Positions 21,543 to 41,435 of a DNA stretch of 64,000 nucleotides are shown one piece after another; positions within the stretch are counted from its first letter, which is position 1; each line of letters starts with the position of its first letter. A program made the translations under genes and the position numbers. The notes beneath the pieces are model-generated. The model ran no database searches. It worked only from the letters and a program-made list of their open reading frames with translations, and was not told the origin of the DNA. Origin of the DNA: an uncultured Anaeroplasmataceae bacterium (GTDB taxonomy: Bacteria; Bacillota_I; Bacilli_A; Acholeplasmatales; Anaeroplasmataceae); the NCBI GenBank assembly GCA_949840955.1, contig CATKXV010000001.1, positions 1 to 64,000 of the forward strand. Reading direction: 5' to 3'.

Positions 21543-21627
21543 GGGGGAGTGATGAAATGGTAGACATAGTTGACTCAAAATCAACCGCCCTAAAAGCGTG
21601 TGGGTTCGAATCCCATCTCCCCTACCA
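21543..21627 (+). tRNA. tRNA-Leu (anticodon CAA)
   Basis: Acceptor 21543-21549 pairs with 21617-21623, with the discriminator A and encoded CCA to 21627. The anticodon stem GTTGA/TCAAC encloses loop CTCAAAA, giving anticodon CAA. A long variable arm (class II) precedes the T arm with loop TTCGAAT. An IS element begins 8 bases downstream. Confidence 0.93.
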
Positions 21628-21690
21628 CCTATACTGAACTTACCCCCATTTATTGGACAAATATGTTACAATAAGTGGAGGTATTTTTTT

Positions 21691-22179
21691 ATGAAAATAA
21701 CAAAAGAACAAAAACTACAAATGGCAAAAGAGCATATAGAGGAAGGAATTCCATTAATAGAACTAGTAAAAAAATATAACTATAATATAACAAATGTTAA
21801 ATATCAATGCGCATTGTATCAAAGATATGGACCAGAAGCTTTTAAAGATAGAGGTATAAAAACATATACAAGAGAAGAAAAATTAGAAGCTATAAAAAGA
21901 AATACAGCAGGAACAAGTATGAGACAGATAGCACTAGAGATGGGACTATCAGATGCATCTATCATACGAGACTGGGTAAGAATGTATGAAGAAAAGGGAG
22001 AGACAGGAATAAAGGATACAAATAGTAGAGCACATTATTTAGTACATGAAGAAAGAATAAATAAGATAGCGCTAGAATCAATGCAAGATAGGATGGAGTA
22101 TTCAGAAGCGGAGAACGAATACCTAAAAAAATTATATTCCCTAATTCTAGAGAGAAGCAAACGATTAAAGAGAAAGTAA
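21691..22179 (+). CDS. IS3-family transposase OrfA (HTH)
   Basis: A 162-aa DNA-binding subunit with two helix-turn-helix modules: EEGIPLIELVKKYNYNITNV and AGTSMRQIALEMGLSDASII. It ends in the leucine-zipper-like segment EAENEYLKKLYSLI. The ATG at 21691 follows GGAGGT with an A/T-rich spacer. The run of seven A at 22125-22131, inside the EYLKKL codons, is a classic slippery site. A -1 shift there enters a frame that stays open into OrfB, producing the OrfAB transposase. Confidence 0.92.
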   Translation: MKITKEQKLQMAKEHIEEGIPLIELVKKYNYNITNVKYQCALYQRYGPEAFKDRGIKTYTREEKLEAIKRNTAGTSMRQIALEMGLSDASIIRDWVRMYEEKGETGIKDTNSRAHYLVHEERINKIALESMQDRMEYSEAENEYLKKLYSLILERSKRLKRK

Positions 22180-22217
22180 AAATTGTTTATGAATTAAGGG
22201 AAAAATATGCATTACCA

Positions 22218-23018
22218 ATGCTTCTCAAAATATCAAGACTATCAAGATCAACATACTTCTATTCATTAAAGAAAATGAACTATAAAGAAGAAAAAGATAA
22301 GGTGCTAGGAGATTTAATAGAAAGAATATATAATGAAAACCATCAAAAATATGGATATATAAGAATAACACAGGAACTAAAAAACAGAGGATATAGTGTA
22401 AATAAAAAGCGAGTAGCAAGGAATCTGTCAGCAATTACGAAGACTAGGCAATATCATTCTTATAAAGGACAAATAGGAAAAATAGTACCGAATATATTAG
22501 AAAGAGATTTTACAACGACAGGACCATATCAAAAACTAGGAACGGACATAACACAGTTTATAACACAATATGGGAAACTATATCTGTCACCAATAATAGA
22601 TTTTCATACAAGAGAAATATTAGCATATGACATATCAACACATCCAAATTTTGAACAAATAAAGCGTATGCTAAAAATGCTTAAAGATAATCATGGGAAT
22701 AAGATAAAAGGAGCGATACTTCATAGTGATCAAGGGTATCAGTATCAAATGAAAGGATATCAAAAAGCCTTAAAAGATTTAGGTATAAAACAGTCTATGT
22801 CAAGAAAAGGGAATTGCTTAGATAATTCTCCAACAGAGAATTTCTTTGGTAGGCTTAAAACAGAAATATATTATGATAAAGAGTATACATACAAATCCTT
22901 AGAAGAACTAAAATGTAATATAGAAAACTATATTGAATACTACAATAATAAAAGAATAGTGATAAAGCTTGGAATGGCGCCAATTGTCTATAGACAATTA
23001 GTTGAAAATAATTTATAA
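22218..23018 (+). CDS. IS3-family transposase OrfB (integrase core)
   Basis: A 266-aa DDE transposase catalytic part, with N-terminal HTH_21 (YNENHQKYGYIRITQELKNRG) and rve integrase core. The acidic triad lies in GTDITQF (first D), HSDQGYQY (second D) and NSPTENFFGRLKTE (E). The reading phase is open back to the A7 slippery site at 22125-22131, so the natural product is probably an OrfAB fusion and not this free ORF. The element looks intact and possibly active. Confidence 0.93.
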   Translation: MLLKISRLSRSTYFYSLKKMNYKEEKDKVLGDLIERIYNENHQKYGYIRITQELKNRGYSVNKKRVARNLSAITKTRQYHSYKGQIGKIVPNILERDFTTTGPYQKLGTDITQFITQYGKLYLSPIIDFHTREILAYDISTHPNFEQIKRMLKMLKDNHGNKIKGAILHSDQGYQYQMKGYQKALKDLGIKQSMSRKGNCLDNSPTENFFGRLKTEIYYDKEYTYKSLEELKCNIENYIEYYNNKRIVIKLGMAPIVYRQLVENNL

Positions 23019-27497: not shown

Positions 27498-28382
27498 TTA
27501 TATATGAGAAAGATATTCTTTTAATTTTTTTAAAAAAATTTGAGCCGCAGGAGAGAAAAATTGATATTTCTTCCATACAATGTCAAGTGGAGATTCTATT
27601 ATAGGCATAAGTGGACGAAAAGCAAATGGACTATCCTGAGCTGTGCTGATAAGCTTATCTAGCCCTATGGCATATCCAATGCCCTCCTCCACTAGGATAG
27701 AGGCATTATAAATCAAATTATAGGTTGCCTTTATGTTCAGCTTTTCTGTATCTGTGTTCATCCATCTTGCAATATTACGAATAGCAAGAGAATGCTTAGA
27801 GCAGATTAAAGGCTTGTCTATTAAATCCTTAGGCTCTATATAAGCCTTGTTAGCAAGTGGAGAATCCTTTCTCATAAGAACACCCCATCTATCTTTAACA
27901 GGTAAACGCAGACAATCGTATTTGTTTAAATCATTTGCTTCAATTAGGATGCCAAAATCAAGCAATCCCTTTTCCAGCTTTTCTGATACCTCAATACTAT
28001 CTCCACTATAAAAATTGAATTGAATATTTGGATATTCCCTTTGAACTTCCTTTGCAATTTTAGCAATAATTTCTATTGCATAGGATTCACCACTACCAAT
28101 ATAGACTTCACCTGATATTGTTTCTGTGGGTGCCTCAAGAGCTTTTCTTGTTTTCTCAAATAGCTCAATCATTTCTTCTGCATGCTTTCGTAATAGAATA
28201 CCCGTTTCTGTAAGTAGCATTTTACGATTTCTCCGCTGAAAGAGTGGTCTTCCGATTTCCTTTTCCAGTGCTTGTATTTGACGTGTTAGGCTAGGCTGAG
28301 TAATATAAAGATAATCAGCAGCCTTAGAAATGTTTTCCTCCCTTGCAACAGCAAGAAAGTATTTAAGCTCTCGTATATCCAT
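27498..28382 (-). CDS. LysR-family regulator (cluster 1)
   Basis: A 294-aa LysR-type regulator. Winged helix at 1-60 (ELKYFLAVAREENISKAADY, ITQPSLTRQIQALE) and a two-lobed effector-binding domain typical of the family. It is transcribed divergently from the acetyltransferase-hydrolase-flavoprotein cluster, the classic LysR arrangement, and a TATGC-N7-GCATA dyad lies between them. It is clearly similar to the LysR at 37606, which heads a second related cluster. The effector is unknown, possibly a redox or electrophile signal given the neighbours. Confidence 0.93.
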   Translation of the reverse strand: MDIRELKYFLAVAREENISKAADYLYITQPSLTRQIQALEKEIGRPLFQRRNRKMLLTETGILLRKHAEEMIELFEKTRKALEAPTETISGEVYIGSGESYAIEIIAKIAKEVQREYPNIQFNFYSGDSIEVSEKLEKGLLDFGILIEANDLNKYDCLRLPVKDRWGVLMRKDSPLANKAYIEPKDLIDKPLICSKHSLAIRNIARWMNTDTEKLNIKATYNLIYNASILVEEGIGYAIGLDKLISTAQDSPFAFRPLMPIIESPLDIVWKKYQFFSPAAQIFLKKLKEYLSHI

Positions 28383-28470: not shown

Positions 28471-28499
28471 TTGACATAGGAATAAAGCAGAAATATAAT
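28471..28499 (+). promoter_or_regulatory. Consensus promoter of the cluster 1 operon
   Basis: TTGACA at 28471-28476, a 17-bp spacer, and TATAAT at 28494-28499; both boxes are perfect consensus. Confidence 0.85.
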
Positions 28500-28521: not shown

Positions 28522-29094
28522 ATGAAAACAGAAGAATTCTTAGATTATTTAAATAGTGGAAAGAAGGTTGTTGCAGGAGGATTAGTGCATCAGCATATGC
28601 ATCAGTTATCAGAGGAAGCAAGAAAAATAACGGTAGAATTAAATCAAAAATATCATTCAAGAGAAGAAATTCAAGAATTGTTTTCCAAGCTAATAGGTAA
28701 GCCAATTGATTCTACATTTGGATTATTTCCACCTTTTTATACAGATTGTGGAAAAAATATTTGTATTGGAAATCGAGTTTTTATCAATGAAGGCTGTTGC
28801 TTCCAGGATCAAGGAGGTATTGAAATAGGTGATGATTGTCTTATAGGCCAGCAGGTCGTAATTGCTACACTCAATCATGATTTGAATCCTACACAGCGTA
28901 AGGATATGATACCGAAACCTGTTAAGCTAGGCAAAAGAGTTTGGGTAGGAGCTCACGCCACCATATTACCAGGAGTAACCATTGGAGATAATTCGGTAAT
29001 TGCAGCTGGTGCGGTTGTAGCAAGGAGTGTTCCTGCAAATGTTGTTGTTGGTGGGATACCTGCAAGAATCATAAAGAAAGTACAGGAGGATTAA
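28522..29094 (+). CDS. Maltose/galactoside-type O-acetyltransferase (cluster 1)
   Basis: A 190-aa hexapeptide-repeat acetyltransferase (left-handed beta helix) using acetyl-CoA. The N-terminal cap resembles Maa/LacA/NodL (EEARKITVELNQKYHS). The repeats and the NEGCCFQDQGGIEIGDDC and ATLNHDLNPTQR segments include the catalytic His region. The C-terminus GAVVARSVPANVVVGGIPAR is diagnostic. It probably acetylates a sugar or small molecule. It is first in an operon with a hydrolase, an Fe-S flavoprotein and a redox lipoprotein; 1-base spacing to the next gene shows coupling. Two paralogues lie in cluster 2. Confidence 0.88.
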   Translation: MKTEEFLDYLNSGKKVVAGGLVHQHMHQLSEEARKITVELNQKYHSREEIQELFSKLIGKPIDSTFGLFPPFYTDCGKNICIGNRVFINEGCCFQDQGGIEIGDDCLIGQQVVIATLNHDLNPTQRKDMIPKPVKLGKRVWVGAHATILPGVTIGDNSVIAAGAVVARSVPANVVVGGIPARIIKKVQED

Positions 29095-29095
29095 A

Positions 29096-30037
29096 ATGGA
29101 ATATTACATTACACAATTAAATGAAAAGGTACAAAGAGAGCATGTTACCTTTCCCAATCGATTTGGAATTCGTATTGCTGCTGATTTATATCTTTTGAAA
29201 AATTTGAATCAATCTCAGAAGCATCCTGCAATTATTATAGGACCTCCCTATGGCGGAGTAAAAGAGCAGGGCTCTTGTGTATGGGCAAATGAGCTTGCAC
29301 TACGTGGCTTTGTTGTTCTTGCCTTTGACCAACCCTTTATGGGAGAAAGTGGAGGTGAGCCTCGCAGAATTACTTCACCAGAAATGTTTACAGAAACCTT
29401 TTCTGCCTGTCTCGATTATTTGGGACTATTATCCTTTGTAGATCGAGAAAAAATTGGAGCCATAGGAATTTGTGGTAGTGCTGGCTTTGCTCTTAGTGCT
29501 GCTCAATGTGATATAAGAATTAAAGCAGTTGCTACGGCAAGTATGTATGATATTTCCTATGTGAGTCGTCTAGGACAAACGAAGGAGCAATTGGAGGCAA
29601 GTAAAAAAGTCCTTTCCTATAAGCGTTGGGAAGATGCAGAGAAAGGCTATCCTGAATATATACCAGCTTTTCCTGAAGCACCCCTTAAACAGGTTCCAGA
29701 GGGAATGCCAGAGCCCACCGCAGAATGGTTTAGGTTTTATGCGATTCCACGTGGACATCATCCTAATGCAAGAGGGGGCTTTACCACAGCAAGCAATCTG
29801 TCCTTCATGAATTTTAGATTGCTGGACTATCTTGATGAAATTTCACCACGTCCGATTTTGTTTATTGTAGGGGATAGGGCTCACTCTCGTTCCTTCAGTG
29901 AAATTGCTTATAAGAAAGCCTTAAGCCCAAAGGAATTGCTTATAGTTAGGGATGCAGAGCATATTGATTTATATGATAGAACAGATCGAATACCATGGGA
30001 TAAGGTTGAAAAATTTTTTAAGGAGAATTTGAAATAA
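29096..30037 (+). CDS. Alpha/beta hydrolase (dienelactone hydrolase/YcjY-like)
   Basis: A 313-aa alpha/beta-hydrolase fold enzyme. IIIGPPYGG forms the oxyanion region; the nucleophile elbow is GICGSAG at 124-130, where either Cys126 or Ser128 could be nucleophilic because the motif is not a standard GxSxG. GDRAHSRSF supplies the acid region and DAEHIDLY the His. It resembles YcjY-type hydrolases annotated as dienelactone hydrolase family. It overlaps the next gene by one base. Being cytoplasmic, it may process the substrate of the neighbouring acetyltransferase or flavoprotein. Confidence 0.85.
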   Translation: MEYYITQLNEKVQREHVTFPNRFGIRIAADLYLLKNLNQSQKHPAIIIGPPYGGVKEQGSCVWANELALRGFVVLAFDQPFMGESGGEPRRITSPEMFTETFSACLDYLGLLSFVDREKIGAIGICGSAGFALSAAQCDIRIKAVATASMYDISYVSRLGQTKEQLEASKKVLSYKRWEDAEKGYPEYIPAFPEAPLKQVPEGMPEPTAEWFRFYAIPRGHHPNARGGFTTASNLSFMNFRLLDYLDEISPRPILFIVGDRAHSRSFSEIAYKKALSPKELLIVRDAEHIDLYDRTDRIPWDKVEKFFKENLK

Positions 30038-30573
30038 TGAAAAATATGGTAATCATTAATTCAAGTTTTCGTAAAGGAGGAAATTCAGAGGCTCTTGCTG
30101 AGCAATTCCAAAAGGGAGCAGAGGAGGTAGGAAATAAGGTAACTACAATCCATTTGCGGGATATAGATTTACAATTTTGTAGGGGCTGTCTTTCCTGTCT
30201 CAAAACAGCAAAATGTGTTCTTCCCGATTGTGTGAATGCAGTGTTGCCTGTTATTCAAAATGCAGATGTTCTTGTTTTTGCAACACCCGTTTATTACTAT
30301 TCTATGTGTGGACAGCTAAAGACCTTTCTTGATCGATTGAATCCTTTATATGGACGAAACCATAGCTTTAAAAAGATATATCTGATTATGACGGCGGCAG
30401 AAGGAGATAGAAGTGCTATGGAAGGAACAATTCAAGGTGTAGAAGGATGGATAGATTGCTTTGATGGTGTAAAACTATCAGGAATAATTTATGGGGTTGG
30501 TGCAGATGCCATTGGAACGATACAAAAAACGAAAGCATATGCAGATGCCTATGAAATGGGGAAGACCATATGA
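30037..30573 (+). CDS. Iron-sulfur flavoprotein / NADPH-dependent FMN reductase family
   Basis: A 178-aa flavodoxin-fold oxidoreductase. The N-terminus VIINSSFRKGGNSEALA binds the FMN phosphate. CRGCLSCLKTAKC is the compact CX2CX2CX5C motif of iron-sulfur flavoproteins, so a [4Fe-4S] cluster is likely. FATPVYYYSMCGQLKTFLDR is the conserved flavin-binding and dimer segment. Its ATG overlaps the previous stop, and its end overlaps the lipoprotein gene by 4 bases, so all four are one translational unit. It could be the cytoplasmic electron carrier for this operon. Confidence 0.88.
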   Translation: MKNMVIINSSFRKGGNSEALAEQFQKGAEEVGNKVTTIHLRDIDLQFCRGCLSCLKTAKCVLPDCVNAVLPVIQNADVLVFATPVYYYSMCGQLKTFLDRLNPLYGRNHSFKKIYLIMTAAEGDRSAMEGTIQGVEGWIDCFDGVKLSGIIYGVGADAIGTIQKTKAYADAYEMGKTI

Positions 30574-32393
30574 AAAGAAGCTTTTATTTTTTGTTCATTG
30601 TATTTCTATTGATTTTAAGTGCTTGTAGCAATTCAGAAGCTACTGGTGAACACCAACCACCTGAAGCTAATACGCCATCGGATAAGGATCATAGCTCCTT
30701 GAGCAATGAAATTTTAGTTGCCTATTTTTCTTGTACTCAAACCACTGAAAAAATTGCCAGCTACATAAAGGAAAAGACAGGTGGAACACAGTATCAAATA
30801 CGGCCAAAAGTTCCCTATACTGAGGAAGACTTAAAATATTATACGAATGGTAGAGCTGATCAGGAGCAAGCAGATTCCTCTTCTCGTCCTGAAATTACTG
30901 GTAGCATAAGTGGCTTTGAAAAATATAAAACGATATTCCTTGGATATCCTATATGGCATGGACAAGCACCAAAAATAATCTATACCTTTTTAGAAAGCTA
31001 TGATTTTTCAAATAAAAGAGTGATTCCCTTTTGTACCTCTCATTCCAGTGGAATTGGCTCAAGTGATACCAATTTACATCCTTTAGCTCCTAATGCTGAA
31101 TGGATTGGTGGAAAAAGATTTGCAAGAGATGCTAGTAAAGAAAATGTGAGTGATTGGATTGATACCTTGAATATTAAGATAGAAACGGAAAAAGAAAATA
31201 TGCAATTTTATTTTATGATTGGAAACACGCGTCTTGCTGCAACCCTTGAAAACAATGCAGCAACAGATGCTTTAAAGGAAAAATTAAAATCAGGACCTAT
31301 TACAATTCAAATGTCAGATTATGGCGGATTTGAAAAGGTTGGTAGCCTTGGCTTTGATTTACCAGCAAGCCATGAACAAATGACTACCCAGCCCTGTGAA
31401 TTTGTCTTATATCAACAAAGCCAACTGGTAATCTTCTATGGTTCCAATCACTGGAGCTACACTCGCTTGGGAAAAATCACAGGGGTTACTCCAGCAGAAT
31501 TAAAAGCTATTCTTGGAAGTGGAAGTACAACGATAACCTTAGGAATGTCAAGTGTATCTTCCTTTGATTTGGATAGTGGTGTAAATGGAAGAGCACCAAC
31601 GATTATGCTCAATAGTGGCTATGAAATGCCTATTCTTGGTATAGGAACATATTCTTTGCATGGAGATACTTGTGTTCAATCTGTTTTATCCGCCTTGGAA
31701 AGTGGTGTTCGACTCATAGATACAGCCTATATGTATGGGAATGAAGCACAGGTTGGACAGGCAATCAGAAAATCAGAAATTCCTCGAGAAGAGATTTTTG
31801 TTATTACTAAGATTTATCCTGGGGAGCAATATTCCAATCCTAAGAAGGCCATTCAGGAAGCTTTAGATAAGCTTAATATTGGATATATTGATATGATGCT
31901 CCTACATCATCCTGGTGCAAACGACGTTCAAGCATACAAGGCAATTGAAGACTTTGTAAAGCAAGGTAAGATTCACTCCATCGGACTTTCTAATTGGTAT
32001 ATAGATGAGATTGATGATTTCATTTCAAAAGTCAATATAAAACCCGCATTGGTACAAAATGAAATCCATCCGTATTATCAAGAAAAGATGGTTGTACCCT
32101 ATATGCATAGTCTAGGAATTGTTATGCAAGCGTGGTATCCCTTTGGTGGAAGAGGGTATACTAGGGAAATGCTATCTGATAAAGCACTTGTTGCAATCGC
32201 AAACGAACATAATGTAACAACAGCACAGGTTATTTTACGTTGGCATTTACAGCGTGGAGTGGTTGCAATTCCAGGCTCAAGCAATCCCGACCATATCAAA
32301 GAAAATATATCCGTGTTTGACTTTGAGCTTACCGATACGGAAATGAATGCTATTGCTACTTTAGATAGAAATGAAAAGCATGATTGGTATTAA
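30570..32393 (+). CDS. Three-domain lipoprotein: flavodoxin + cyclophilin-like + aldo/keto reductase
   Basis: A 607-aa protein. The signal peptide ends in lipobox LSAC (Cys19), then a linker. Flavodoxin_4-type domain 47-203 (ILVAYFSCTQTTEKIASYI, LGYPIWHGQAPK, PFCTSHSSGIGSS). Cyclophilin-like domain 211-326 (MQFYFMIGNTRLAATLENNA, YGSNHWSYTRLGKI). Aldo/keto reductase 338-607 with tetrad Asp384, Tyr389, Lys414 and His446/447, and the PGSSNPDHIKEN NADPH-binding end. The frame is continuous and each domain looks intact. It is odd because reductases of this type need NADPH, scarce outside the cell. Export is inferred from the lipobox; the domain names are family knowledge. Confidence 0.85.
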   Translation: MKRSFYFLFIVFLLILSACSNSEATGEHQPPEANTPSDKDHSSLSNEILVAYFSCTQTTEKIASYIKEKTGGTQYQIRPKVPYTEEDLKYYTNGRADQEQADSSSRPEITGSISGFEKYKTIFLGYPIWHGQAPKIIYTFLESYDFSNKRVIPFCTSHSSGIGSSDTNLHPLAPNAEWIGGKRFARDASKENVSDWIDTLNIKIETEKENMQFYFMIGNTRLAATLENNAATDALKEKLKSGPITIQMSDYGGFEKVGSLGFDLPASHEQMTTQPCEFVLYQQSQLVIFYGSNHWSYTRLGKITGVTPAELKAILGSGSTTITLGMSSVSSFDLDSGVNGRAPTIMLNSGYEMPILGIGTYSLHGDTCVQSVLSALESGVRLIDTAYMYGNEAQVGQAIRKSEIPREEIFVITKIYPGEQYSNPKKAIQEALDKLNIGYIDMMLLHHPGANDVQAYKAIEDFVKQGKIHSIGLSNWYIDEIDDFISKVNIKPALVQNEIHPYYQEKMVVPYMHSLGIVMQAWYPFGGRGYTREMLSDKALVAIANEHNVTTAQVILRWHLQRGVVAIPGSSNPDHIKENISVFDFELTDTEMNAIATLDRNEKHDWY

Positions 32394-32441
32394 CGCTAAG
32401 GAGAACAATCGATTGAATTCAAAGGATGGATTTTAAAGATA

Positions 32442-32486
32442 GAAAAAAGGACTGTCTAATTTGATTTTTTAAACAGTCCTTTTTTC
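32442..32486. terminator. Strong terminator after the cluster 1 operon
   Basis: GAAAAAAGGACTGT (32442-32455) is perfectly complementary to ACAGTCCTTTTTTC (32473-32486), 14 bp. The T-rich arm provides the U-tract. Between here and the permease leader at 32686 I see only A/T-rich DNA. Confidence 0.85.
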
Positions 32487-32685
32487 TTTATCTTTTTAAA
32501 GGATGAGACAATTGCCTCAAAAAGTATAAAAAATTTATAATGGGTACTTTATAGTATAATTGAAAAAGCTTTTGAAGAAAATAGTTTATAAGGATTATTA
32601 ATAGATTTTATTTTGTTTTTCATTTTCATAAAATGTATTTATGAATATAAGAAAAATAATTCTATGAAAGCCATATTCCTTGTGA

Positions 32686-37512: not shown

Positions 37513-37605
37513 GATAGAGAAATATTTACATATTTATTAAAATGATGATATAATTAAAAGGTATATGAAGAGAATTAAATGCCTTTCAACTATAAGGAGG
37601 ATTTT

Positions 37606-38502
37606 ATGGAATTAAGAGTTTTGCGTTATTTTTTGTCCGTAGTGAGAGAAGAAAATATCTTAAGAGCAGCTGAAGTATTACATATTACACAGCCTTCCTT
37701 ATCTCGTCAGCTTGCTCAGCTTGAGGAAGAATTAGGGGCTAAGTTGTTTGAAAGAGGAAATAGAAAAATCACGCTTACTGAGGCAGGACTATTATTAAAG
37801 CGTCGTGCAGAAGAGATGGTTTCTTTAGCTGATAAAACAGAACAAGAATTTTTAACTTTGTCTGGTGGCGATGATATCACAGGTGTCATTTCCATTGGAA
37901 GTGGAGAATTAAGTTCTGTAAGTGAGCTTTCTAAAATGATTTTTTCTTTTAGCCAAAAATATCCTCATATCCATTTTAATTTCTTTTCTGGAAATGCTGA
38001 CACAATTAAAGATCAAATTGATAAAGGTCTTCTTGATTTTGGGCTGTTTCTAGAACCTGTTGATGTTGATAAATATGATTACTTGAGAATGCCAATAAAA
38101 GAACATTGGATAGTTGTGGTTCCTAAGGACTCTCCACTTGCAGAAAAAGAAAGCATAACCCCAGAAGATCTTTCCGACAAGCCTTTAATCTTACCAAGTC
38201 GTAATCGTATCAAATCTGAGCTTGCTAGTTGGTTTGGTGTTTATTTTAAAGAAAAGAATGTTTTTTCATCAAATAATCTCATCAATAATGCTGCCTTGAT
38301 GGTGGAAGAAGGTCTTGGGTATGCTCTGGCTGTTGAAGGCTCAGTTGCGATGTATGGCAACAATAAAGTCCTTGTAAAAAGACTATATCCAGATTTGATT
38401 TCAACTTCTGTAATAGCTTGGAAAAAACATCAGCCAACTGGTGTAGCTGTGACAAAATTTCAAAATCACGTTCGTATGTCTATAGAGCATAAGAAGGTAT
38501 AG
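37606..38502 (+). CDS. LysR-family regulator (cluster 2)
   Basis: A 298-aa LysR regulator closely resembling the one at 27498-28382: both begin with x-LR-L-YFL-V-REENI and ITQPSLSRQLAQLEEELG and share later KYD-LR-P-K--W and EEG-GYA segments. The ATG at 37606 is used because AAGGAGG (37594-37600) is 5 bases upstream; the longer frame from 37579 is not needed. It is transcribed in the same direction as its cluster, with a promoter and dyad between it and the flavodoxin lipoprotein gene. Confidence 0.92.
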   Translation: MELRVLRYFLSVVREENILRAAEVLHITQPSLSRQLAQLEEELGAKLFERGNRKITLTEAGLLLKRRAEEMVSLADKTEQEFLTLSGGDDITGVISIGSGELSSVSELSKMIFSFSQKYPHIHFNFFSGNADTIKDQIDKGLLDFGLFLEPVDVDKYDYLRMPIKEHWIVVVPKDSPLAEKESITPEDLSDKPLILPSRNRIKSELASWFGVYFKEKNVFSSNNLINNAALMVEEGLGYALAVEGSVAMYGNNKVLVKRLYPDLISTSVIAWKKHQPTGVAVTKFQNHVRMSIEHKKV

Positions 38503-38512
38503 ATAATAGGTA

Positions 38513-38542
38513 TTAGACATATTAAATAAAAATGACTATAAT
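38513..38542 (+). promoter_or_regulatory. Promoter of the cluster 2 operon
   Basis: TTAGAC at 38513-38518, an 18-bp spacer, and TATAAT at 38537-38542. The start site would fall inside the dyad that follows. Confidence 0.55.
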
Positions 38543-38574
38543 GTAAGTGTAAAGGTTGACACTTACATTTTTTT
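38542..38574 (+). terminator. Dyad with T-run: lysR2 terminator and possible operator
   Basis: TGTAAGTGT (38542-38550) pairs perfectly with ACACTTACA (38559-38567), followed by seven T. It would terminate read-through from lysR2. A transcript from the promoter above would begin inside the left arm and escape it. GTGT-N8-ACAC could also be bound by a LysR protein. Confidence 0.6.
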
Positions 38575-38592
38575 ATACGATGGAGGACATTT

Positions 38593-39240
38593 ATGAAACA
38601 TTTAAAAAATTTACTTTTAGTAGTAGTTACACTTTTCTTTGCAGTATCACTTATATCCTGTGGTAAAACAGAGGATCCTATTGAATCTGAAAATGAAAAT
38701 AATAATTCAAATAATGAAAATAATTCAAATGGTTCCAACGAAAAGCCCAATGAAACTAGTGAGCATAAAATTTTAGTAGCTTATTTTTCTGCAACTAATA
38801 CAACTAAGCGTATTGCAGAGCTTATTCAAGAAGAAGTAGAGGGAACTCTATTTGAGATTGTTCCTGTAGTTTCTTATACATCAGCAGATTTGAACTACAA
38901 CAATTCAAACTCAAGAACAAGTTTAGAAAATCAAGATGATTCTATCCGACCTGAGATTAAAGGAATGGTAGAGAATATGGACCAATATGATGTTGTATAT
39001 ATAGGCTATCCAATTTGGTTTGGAAAAGCCCCAAAACCAGTTTATACTTTCTTTGAGTCTTATGATTTTTCTGGGAAAACAATCATACCTTTTTGTACCT
39101 CTGGAAGTAGTAGCATAGGTTCTAGTGCGACTTACTTGGAGAAATTAACAAAGTCTTCTACTTGGTTAAGTGGAACACGTTTTTCTTCAACTGCAACCCA
39201 AAGCACAATAGCCTCTTGGATTAAAGGACTAAAGTATTAA
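38593..39240 (+). CDS. Flavodoxin-domain lipoprotein (cluster 2)
   Basis: A 215-aa lipid-anchored flavodoxin. Signal peptide with lipobox LISC (Cys23), an Asn/Glu-rich low-complexity linker (about 30-55), then a Flavodoxin_4-type domain: ILVAYFSATNTTKRIAELI for FMN phosphate, YIGYPIWFGKAPKPVYTFFE, and FCTSGSSSIGSS. The domain is closely similar to the first domain of the three-domain lipoprotein at 30570, so one derives from the other or from a common ancestor. It leads an operon with two acetyltransferases and a second redox lipoprotein. Confidence 0.88.
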   Translation: MKHLKNLLLVVVTLFFAVSLISCGKTEDPIESENENNNSNNENNSNGSNEKPNETSEHKILVAYFSATNTTKRIAELIQEEVEGTLFEIVPVVSYTSADLNYNNSNSRTSLENQDDSIRPEIKGMVENMDQYDVVYIGYPIWFGKAPKPVYTFFESYDFSGKTIIPFCTSGSSSIGSSATYLEKLTKSSTWLSGTRFSSTATQSTIASWIKGLKY

Positions 39241-39256
39241 GACTTAAAGGTGAAAA

Positions 39257-39826
39257 ATGAAAGATATTTTACAAAGAGAATTAGATGGCGAAGAAATCAA
39301 AACCTCTGATCCGGACTATCATAAAATCAGTGATATCATTAGAGAAACGATGCGCCTTGCCTATCAATTCAATCAACAGGCTCCTTTTGATGAAAATAAT
39401 CAAAATTTATTGAATCAGATTTTTGGAAAAGATATTGATGAAACAACAACGATATTGCCACCATTTTATATTGATTATGGAAAAAACGTTACATTAGGAA
39501 AACGTGTATGGATTCAGCAGGGGTGTACCTTCTTTGATCGTGGAGGAATTATAATAGGAGATGATGTGTTTATTGCTCCTAAAGTAAATCTCATCACACT
39601 GAATCATATTAGGAATCCATATGAGCGAAGTACTACGGTAGCTAAACCCATCAAAATAGGAAATCGGGTATGGATAGGTATTGCAGCAACAATCCTGCCT
39701 GGAGTAACCATTGGCGAAAATGCAATTGTTGCAGCAGGAGCTGTTGTTACACATGATGTTCCTGCAAATGCAGTAGTTGCAGGAAATCCAGCGAGAATCA
39801 TTAAAAAAATAGAAGAAAGAGAATAA
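39257..39826 (+). CDS. Maltose/galactoside-type O-acetyltransferase (cluster 2, first)
   Basis: A 189-aa hexapeptide acetyltransferase with the same architecture as the one at 28522. The N-terminal cap [20 protein letters not shown] is followed by the [20 protein letters not shown] strand, [10 protein letters not shown] (His region) and the C-terminal [20 protein letters not shown] coil. Acetyl-CoA dependent; acceptor unknown. It starts 16 bases after the flavodoxin gene with AAAGGTG as ribosome-binding site, and its stop is 2 bases before the next acetyltransferase gene. Confidence 0.87.
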
Positions 39827-39828
39827 AC

Positions 39829-40380
39829 ATGAAGGAAACTAGAATCAATTTAAGAGAAGTAGGAAAACAACGATTTGAACAGACAAAGAAAACCTCTGAT
39901 AAACTATTTGAGTTAAATCACACGATGCCATTTACAGAAAAATATAATCAATTGATAAAAGAATTTTTTACTGGTGGTTTAGGGGAGAATTGTTACATTC
40001 TTGTTCCTCTTTATATTAATCTTGTTGAAAATATTCATATAGGAAATAAAGTATCAATAAATCCTTACTTTAAATGTATGTCAGCAGGAAATGTTTTTAT
40101 TGAGGATAATGTTCAAATTGCAATGAATGTTTCTCTAATTACAAACAATCATGATTTTTATGAGCGATCTATTTTAACTGTAAAAGATATTCATATAAAG
40201 AAGAATGCTTGGATAGGGGCAGGTGCTACAATATTACCAGGAGTTACTATCGGAGAAAATGCAGTTGTTGGTGCTGGAAGTGTTGTTACACATGATGTTC
40301 CTTCAAATACAGTAGTTGCAGGAAATCCTGCACGTATTATCAAAACCTTAGATTCAAATCGGTTTAATTCCAATCACTGA
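39829..40380 (+). CDS. Hexapeptide O-acetyltransferase (cluster 2, second)
   Basis: A 183-aa paralogue of the preceding gene with the same cap and beta-helix plan. It shares [10 protein letters not shown] and [17 protein letters not shown] with it, but the catalytic region [12 protein letters not shown] differs, implying a different acceptor. The two may form heterotrimers or act in sequence. The stop is followed 14 bases later by the second redox lipoprotein gene, with AAGGAGG between them. Confidence 0.85.
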
Positions 40381-40394
40381 TAAGGAGGAAAAGA

Positions 40395-41435
40395 ATGAAA
40401 AAGTTTATTTTATTTTGTATTACAATACTTTATCTTTTAGGATTTGTTTCTTGTAAAAATACACCAAAAGAAGAAATACCAGCAGAGGAAAATACTCCTA
40501 TAGAAAACGAACAAAAACCAAATCAAGAGGCACCTATTTCTTCAAACAAAAAGGTTCTTATCGCCTATTTTTCCTTAGCGGAAAATATGGTAAATGAAGT
40601 AGATGCCGAGGCTTCTGCAAGTATGTCTTTACCTGGAGATGTAACAAGATTAGCCTATTACATTCAAAAATATACTGATGGAGATATATTTTCTATTCAT
40701 ACTATTAAAAAATATCCAAATGATTTTCAGGCAGTAGTAGATGAAAATCATAGTGAAAGTACAAATCCTAAATTAGAAAAAAAGGTAGAAAATTTAGATC
40801 AGTATGACACAATATTTATTGGATATCCTGTATGGGCTACAAATGTTCCAAGAGCGATACGTACTTTTTTGGAAGAAAATAATCTTTCTAAGAAGACAGT
40901 TGTCCCTTTTTGCTCTCATAATGGCTATGGAGCTGGAAGTAGTTATTCTACAATTAAAAGTTTGAGTGGTGCAAATACATTAGATGGCTTTGCAATACTT
41001 GGAACACAAACTGCCTCTGCTCAAAACTCTATAAATGAATGGTTAGAAAAAATAGGGATAAAAAAAGCTACCTCTATAGTACCAATTGAACTTGTTATAG
41101 GAGATATCATTTTAAATGCAAATCTAAACAATACAGCAGTAGCAAAAGAATTTTTAAAGCTATTACCCCAATCTATGCGACTTTCTCGTTATGGAGACAG
41201 AGAATATTACGGTTCCATACAGGGAAGTATTAGCGTAGAAGGTGAAAGAAAACGAAATTTTACGAAAGGTGAAATTTCTTATTGTCCTGCCAATAATACT
41301 TTTGCGATATGGTTTGATAAAGAGGAACAAATGTTGGGTATGGATATTATAAAAATTGGAGAAATCACATCTGATTACAATGTGCTAAAAACTTTGGAAT
41401 CAGGTATCGAAGTTCTAGTAAGAAAAACAAACTGA
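40395..41435 (+). CDS. Flavodoxin + cyclophilin-like lipoprotein (cluster 2)
   Basis: A 346-aa lipoprotein: lipobox GFVSC (Cys20), an acidic linker to about 50, then a flavodoxin domain (VLIAYFSLAENMVNE, FIGYPVWATNVPRAIRTFLE, FCSHNGYGAGSS) to about 225. A cyclophilin-like domain follows (IPIELVIGDIILNANLNNTA, then a YG-x-IQGSISVEG segment). The Asn/Glu insert in the FMN loop (ENMVNEVDAEASASM) resembles extended flavodoxin families. It shows the first two domains of the cluster 1 protein without the aldo/keto reductase. A terminator follows at 41492. Confidence 0.83.
   Translation: MKKFILFCITILYLLGFVSCKNTPKEEIPAEENTPIENEQKPNQEAPISSNKKVLIAYFSLAENMVNEVDAEASASMSLPGDVTRLAYYIQKYTDGDIFSIHTIKKYPNDFQAVVDENHSESTNPKLEKKVENLDQYDTIFIGYPVWATNVPRAIRTFLEENNLSKKTVVPFCSHNGYGAGSSYSTIKSLSGANTLDGFAILGTQTASAQNSINEWLEKIGIKKATSIVPIELVIGDIILNANLNNTAVAKEFLKLLPQSMRLSRYGDREYYGSIQGSISVEGERKRNFTKGEISYCPANNTFAIWFDKEEQMLGMDIIKIGEITSDYNVLKTLESGIEVLVRKTN

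Follow-up and report, generated by a model that had tools for sequence, protein, structure and literature searches.

The window, a stretch of 64,000 nucleotides from an uncultured Anaeroplasmataceae bacterium, encodes a protein in which a flavodoxin, a cyclophilin-like domain and an aldo/keto reductase (AKR) are joined behind a predicted lipoprotein signal. It belongs to an exported AKR family that is widespread and apparently undescribed. The fusion gene (30570..32393, plus strand, as all features below unless stated otherwise) is one uninterrupted frame of 607 codons, coding for 607 amino acids, and its ATG start overlaps the upstream stop by 4 bp. The signal peptide (30570..30626) is followed by a Flavodoxin_4 domain (residues 48-199, 30711..31166; PF12682, E-value 3.2e-44, 150.6 bits against a gathering cut-off of 24), a Cyclophil_like2 domain (residues 216-324, 31215..31541; PF18050, 1.2e-21, 77.3 bits against 22.7) and the AKR domain (residues 341-607, 31590..32390), in which Aldo_ket_red (PF00248) matches residues 357-598 (E-value 9.3e-49, 166.5 bits against 24). 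The first-pass annotation had placed these three domains on one frame from the letters alone, and Pfam profiles now recognize each segment.

The fusion is a real three-domain protein. Its AlphaFold2 model contains three confident domains (mean pLDDT 85), with low confidence only at the two ends of the chain and in short loops; the pTM of 0.64 for the full model makes the relative domain placement too unreliable for judging an electron path. Comparison with L010 and L011, two relatives, shows synonymous change that has reached or nearly reached saturation, against non-synonymous differences of 9-35% in all three domains, which indicates purifying selection on each of them. The search of other genomes that the first-pass annotation had suggested retrieved the same domain order from eight further loci. 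An assembly join is ruled out by this recurrence, and chance or a frame artefact by the recurrence together with the Pfam matches and the purifying selection.

The fusion is not an isolated case; it is one arrangement within a large, shuffling family. Scanning one genome per species gave 392 encoding stretches, and the best 79 loci, which were retained, hold 84 AKR-bearing frames: 46 flavodoxin-AKR, 20 AKR alone, 10 cyclophilin-like-AKR and 8 with all three domains. Here, "AKR alone" means no partner by BLAST, and some of these 20 frames have a cyclophilin-like domain by Pfam. Flavodoxin is by far the commonest fusion partner (54/84 frames), and 30 of the 84 frames have no recognized flavodoxin domain. 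The hosts are mostly gut bacteria, from Bacillota, Mycoplasmatota and Bacteroidota, with an Akkermansiaceae and an Anaerolineaceae member. In an even draw from the phylum of the window, 14 of 392 genomes, including the window's own, encode a close family member. At least 21 architecture changes (8 of the cyclophilin-like domain, 15 of the flavodoxin) map onto the AKR tree, which was built by a quick method, has SH-aLRT values as its only support and shows the phyla intermixed. Three loci (L054, L104, L128) have a disrupted or split AKR frame, through frameshift, deletion or sequencing error, and the AKR rows of two others (L098 and L021) are identical. The literature searched, mainly open-access, yielded no description of an AKR-flavodoxin fusion or of an exported AKR. 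Known families account for each domain; the novelty lies in their combination and location, with a predicted NADH-type pocket outside the cell.

The N-terminus of the fusion, MKRSFYFLFIVFLLILSAC, carries the lipobox reported at first reading, LSAC with Cys19, preceded by a hydrophobic stretch beginning with MKR. The genome encodes the lipoprotein signal peptidase LspA, and the fusion is thus a predicted lipoprotein. By a simple rule, an export signal is present in 77 of the 84 AKR-bearing frames, as a lipobox in 55 and as another hydrophobic N-terminal segment in 22. Among the seven others are two frames whose start is shortened, LTTSACS being still visible in one of them; the remainder are fragments, paralogues and two frames truncated by contig ends. 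Furthermore, relatives carry surface-type modules: SLH (L013, L017), Cu_amine_oxidN1 (L084), choline-binding repeats (L069) and Big_2 Ig-like domains (L068). The predicted cell-surface location is therefore well supported, and retention in the cytoplasm was not indicated computationally. The window's genus includes MAGs labelled Anaeroplasmataceae, yet penicillin-binding-protein-type transpeptidases encoded in the genome suggest that a wall is probably present.

Some members are signal-less and apparently cytosolic (L102, L125 and L119, the last with separate flavodoxin and AKR genes), which indicates that the pair can also function inside cells and, from the solo members, that the AKR chemistry does not need an extracellular location. 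The L119 locus (genome G378, 2-2304; a genome in which TGA seems to encode Trp) is a soluble version of the system, with hydrolase, flavodoxin and AKR each encoded by its own signal-less gene. These few solo members and this cytosolic operon would fit a protein of the window whose signal goes unused and which is simply a cytosolic NADH-dependent enzyme. However, the several types of export signal found among family members, their SLH, choline-binding, Cu-amine-oxidase-N and Big_2 modules, and the presence of LspA make such a protein highly improbable.

TatC was not detected in the window's genome; the same search was positive in 11 of 14 control genomes. Searches of the genome were made one family at a time. 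The assembly is 97% complete, which makes the absence of TatC likely, not certain. Without a detected TatC, export is expected to proceed through Sec, unfolded and with no pre-loaded cofactor, so that the cofactors of the fusion are probably bound outside the cell.

The AKR part of the AlphaFold2 model resembles solved AKRs with TM-scores (target) of 0.74-0.92. The full catalytic tetrad claimed earlier, D384, Y389, K414 and H446, is intact, as it is in practically every member of an alignment of 90 relatives. In the same alignment S474, Q496, W522, E578 and N579, at the nicotinamide and adenine sites, are invariant or nearly so. A purely non-redox use of the fold, which the first-pass annotation had left as an option, is disfavoured by the conserved tetrad and dinucleotide pocket. 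Almost all members end in the nearly invariant sequence DRNEKHDWY (32366-32390 in the window), which is possibly part of a substrate loop. The scores stay below the NCBIfam equivalog cut-offs for DkgA (204 vs 425 bits) and DkgB (189 vs 327 bits).

The assumed dependence on NADPH, in its strict form, has to be given up. In the cofactor loop PGSSNPDHIKEN (residues 568-579, 32271..32306), Gly569 and His575 occupy the positions of the Lys and Arg that bind the 2'-phosphate in NADPH-type AKRs, and they do so in 90 of 90 relatives; basic ligands of the K232/R238 type (numbering of 2,5-DKG reductase A) are absent. The replacement of both ligands, Lys by Gly and Arg by His, predicts an NADH-type rather than an NADPH-type domain. 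The best PDB match of the loop is 1M9H (PGSVRREHLEEN), ahead of wild-type 1A80. The PDB sequence of 1M9H has Gly and His at positions 232 and 238, and this entry is presumably the NADH-active 2,5-DKG reductase mutant F22Y/K232G/R238H/A272G. Position 361 of the fusion is Tyr, as is position 22 in 1M9H. In xylose reductases, which are also AKRs, K-to-G and R-replacing changes are listed among the NADPH-to-NADH switches (review, PMC5817062), in a loop that, by our reading, is equivalent to the cofactor loop of the fusion. A cytosolic AKR on another contig of the same genome (C2) retains Lys and Arg. More distantly related cytosolic AKRs (L106 and L108) have the Gly/His loop too, which makes it a trait of the subfamily, not of export, and weakens its interpretation as an export adaptation.

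A pocket that is fully conserved despite the export direction, and exported members that have no flavodoxin, would also suit a redox-neutral enzyme, for example an epimerase, dismutase or transhydrogenase, in which a tightly held NAD(H) is oxidized and re-reduced in each cycle with no external cofactor. Exported glucose-fructose oxidoreductase works through such a cycle on a tightly held nucleotide. However, the known exported proteins of this sort, with tightly bound nucleotides, travel folded via Tat, for which no TatC was found here, and the frequent flavodoxin would be left unexplained. We regard a redox-neutral enzyme as quite improbable.

The close solved homologues of the flavodoxin domain are 3KLB (the nearest), 4J8P and 4ICI, and 3KLB is described as FMN-bound (PMC11334425). 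Among 65 aligned flavodoxin domains S54, T59 and W129 are invariant, and T56 is present in 61; by homology to 3KLB, these residues likely form the FMN phosphate loop and aromatic positions. The domain scores below the curated NCBIfam cut-off of the PRK07116 subfamily (NF005501; 179.4 vs 198 bits). The ApbE flavinylation motif ([S/T]GA[S/T]-like, in a beta1-alpha1 insert) was not found in the fusion, so flavinylation by ApbE was rejected, although the genome has two ApbE homologues. Together with 3KLB as nearest structure, the missing motif leads us to expect non-covalent FMN. The two ApbE homologues (L089 and L090, on contigs C9 and C2) both have lipoprotein-like N-termini; L090 is a weak match (62 bits) and may be degenerate. 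A Rnf-like locus in the genome may account for one of them. A paralogue in the window, at 40395-41435, has a flavodoxin insert with DAEASAS, similar to the flavinylation motif.

The linkers between flavodoxin and AKR are mostly 11-24 residues long, and the two are encoded by separate adjacent genes in L119, L118 and L085, as well as on contig C2 of the window's genome. Fusion or adjacency in many lineages and the short linkers support a functional coupling. In L069 (2491-4740), flavodoxin and AKR are about 300 residues apart, separated by a stalk of choline-binding repeats; this spacer, and the 30 of 84 frames that have no recognized flavodoxin, indicate that flavin recycling is not obligatory in cis. 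The coupling could take the form of a direct relay, in which a membrane or extracellular donor reduces the flavodoxin FMN and this hands electrons on directly to a nucleotide that the AKR holds permanently, giving a flavin-driven carbonyl reductase. Besides the short linkers at many loci, the two ApbE homologues and the Rnf-like locus would agree with this, as would published extracytosolic Flavodoxin_4 proteins tied to ApbE and DUF4405 cytochromes (PMC11334425). Against it stand the long spacer, the many members with no flavodoxin and an operon that contains no membrane electron donor. The relay would also have to serve a nicotinamide that, in AKRs, sits deep in the barrel and requires a hydride, not single electrons, and we consider it rather unlikely.

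The model of the middle domain (pTM 0.86) has a cyclophilin-like fold, with a TM-score of 0.7 to TM1367 (1ZX8) and a Foldseek match to KslB over 0.65 of the query length. A PDB sequence search with this domain returned chance matches only. In a sequence alignment of 29 such domains no Arg is invariant, as the catalytic Arg of cyclophilins would be; the best candidate, R299, is present in 21. A role as peptidyl-prolyl isomerase was therefore set aside, and the domain is probably a ligand- or substrate-binding accessory module; its resemblance to KslB is a lead only.

The fusion gene is the fourth and last of a same-strand set, with gaps of 1 bp or short overlaps. It follows a maltose O-acetyltransferase-like hexapeptide acetyltransferase (28522..29094), an alpha/beta hydrolase of the dienelactone-hydrolase type (29096..30037) and a presumably cytosolic protein of the FMN_red family (NADPH-dependent FMN reductase/flavodoxin-like; 30037..30573), all identified by profile matches. 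A LysR-family regulator (27498..28382, minus strand; Pfam HTH_1 and LysR_substrate) diverges from the operon. Between the two lies a promoter-like site of sigma-70 type (28471..28499) that matches TTGACA-17-TATAAT in 12 of 12 positions, a consensus match only. A strong hairpin resembling an intrinsic terminator, with a T-run (32435..32494; folding z -4.1), follows the fusion gene; the pattern scan for promoters and terminators did not list it, probably owing to its long loop. Homologues of these neighbours recur in the flanks of the 79 related loci (hydrolase 44, LysR 42, acetyltransferase 35, FMN_red 18), an iron alcohol dehydrogenase lies near 18 and a cupin/carboxymuconolactone decarboxylase near about 10, in counts over loci many of which end early at contig ends. 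In two genomes of the window's genus (L111, L115) the order is LysR, acetyltransferase, hydrolase, flavodoxin-AKR and a separate cyclophilin-like lipoprotein, and a short contig of a third (L112) has acetyltransferase, flavodoxin-AKR and the cyclophilin-like gene. These parts thus recur in the window, where the cyclophilin-like domain belongs to the fusion.

Such neighbourhoods, with hydrolase, acetyltransferase, and iron alcohol dehydrogenase or cupin/carboxymuconolactone-decarboxylase genes, would also be expected if flavodoxin and AKR were catalysts in their own right within a shared detoxification or degradation pathway, joined only for location and regulation and each using cofactor scavenged from the gut lumen. 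The roughly 21 architecture changes on the AKR tree fit this as well. However, the prevalence of flavodoxin among the fusion partners and the narrow range of linker lengths speak against it, and we consider this explanation unlikely.

Further LysR islands lie in the same genome. The second, in the window (37579-41435), consists of LysR, a lipoprotein flavodoxin (38593-39240), two maltose-acetyltransferase-like genes and the flavodoxin-cyclophilin lipoprotein already mentioned (40395-41435). The third (L009, contig C2, 5402-8619, minus strand) encodes a 592-residue lipoprotein with three tandem flavodoxin domains, beside the cytosolic NADPH-type AKR and a single flavodoxin. A transposase-like gene pair (21598-23018) abuts a tRNA gene (21543-21624) in the window.

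Architecture and location of the fusion are strongly supported, and its two cofactor sites are intact, one of them NADH-type; its catalysis is inferred. The fusion would be an enzyme held by a lipid anchor at the outer surface of the cell membrane, and its AKR domain would bind NAD(H), not NADP(H), and interconvert carbonyls and alcohols outside the cell. The non-covalent FMN of the flavodoxin would be the redox partner that re-oxidizes or re-reduces the NAD(H) of the AKR, so that a small captive or scavenged pool could suffice. WrbA-like flavodoxins, which act as NADH:quinone oxidoreductases, are the model for this proposed role. The cyclophilin-like domain would be an accessory, probably binding ligand or substrate. 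Expression probably responds to the substrate through the divergent LysR regulator; this substrate is plausibly an aromatic compound or a reactive carbonyl that the co-encoded hydrolase and flavoproteins also handle. Cofactor occupancy, reaction direction, electron path and substrate are all deduced. We tentatively favour this surface NAD(H)-dependent carbonyl reductase or dehydrogenase with an NAD(H)-recycling FMN domain, while giving it somewhat less than an even chance. It is possible, though doubtful, that it represents a widespread class of surface NAD(H)-dependent AKRs that run their own extracellular cofactor cycle through a fused FMN flavodoxin, independent of Tat export or cytosolic NADH supply.

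Nicotinamide-dependent reductases are normally cytosolic, where NAD(P)H is made, and the exported AKR family departs from this rule. Surface AKRs with an NADH-type pocket raise the question of cofactor supply outside the cell: if they are active, either NAD(H) serves as a cofactor outside gut bacteria or a self-contained FMN/NAD cycle operates. An active family would also be a candidate for converting carbonyl compounds within the gut lumen.

The closest published parallel to the flavodoxin part are the ApbE-flavinylated Flavodoxin_4 proteins, extracytosolic electron-transfer proteins found mainly in Firmicutes (mSystems 2024, PMC11334425). Like them, the fusion carries a Flavodoxin_4 domain in a protein directed outside the cytosol, but they have a beta1-alpha1 insert with a flavinylation motif and the fusion has neither; the words "aldo" and "cyclophilin" are absent from the main text of that study. 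The flavodoxins 3KLB, 4J8P and 4ICI are insert-free like that of the fusion and were solved as single-domain proteins (159-171 residues). The middle domain shares its fold with TM1367 and the Pictet-Spenglerase KslB at about 15% identity, at which a transfer of function is unjustified. The AKR domain, about 40% identical to 1VP5, resembles the 2,5-diketo-D-gluconate reductases and DkgA (1VP5, 1A80, 1MZR) in fold, tetrad and adenine-binding Glu/Asn. These reductases are cytosolic and NADPH-dependent, single-domain and with Lys and Arg at the 2'-phosphate site, whereas the fusion is multi-domain, with Gly and His. The laboratory-made 1M9H shares the Gly/His loop but has neither signal nor fusion. 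The E. coli aldehyde-detoxification locus yqhC-yqhD-dkgA also encodes a Dkg-type AKR, and some relatives of the fusion have an iron alcohol dehydrogenase nearby. In E. coli, however, the regulator is of the AraC type and the AKR is neither exported nor accompanied by a flavodoxin, whereas the fusion locus is associated with a LysR regulator.
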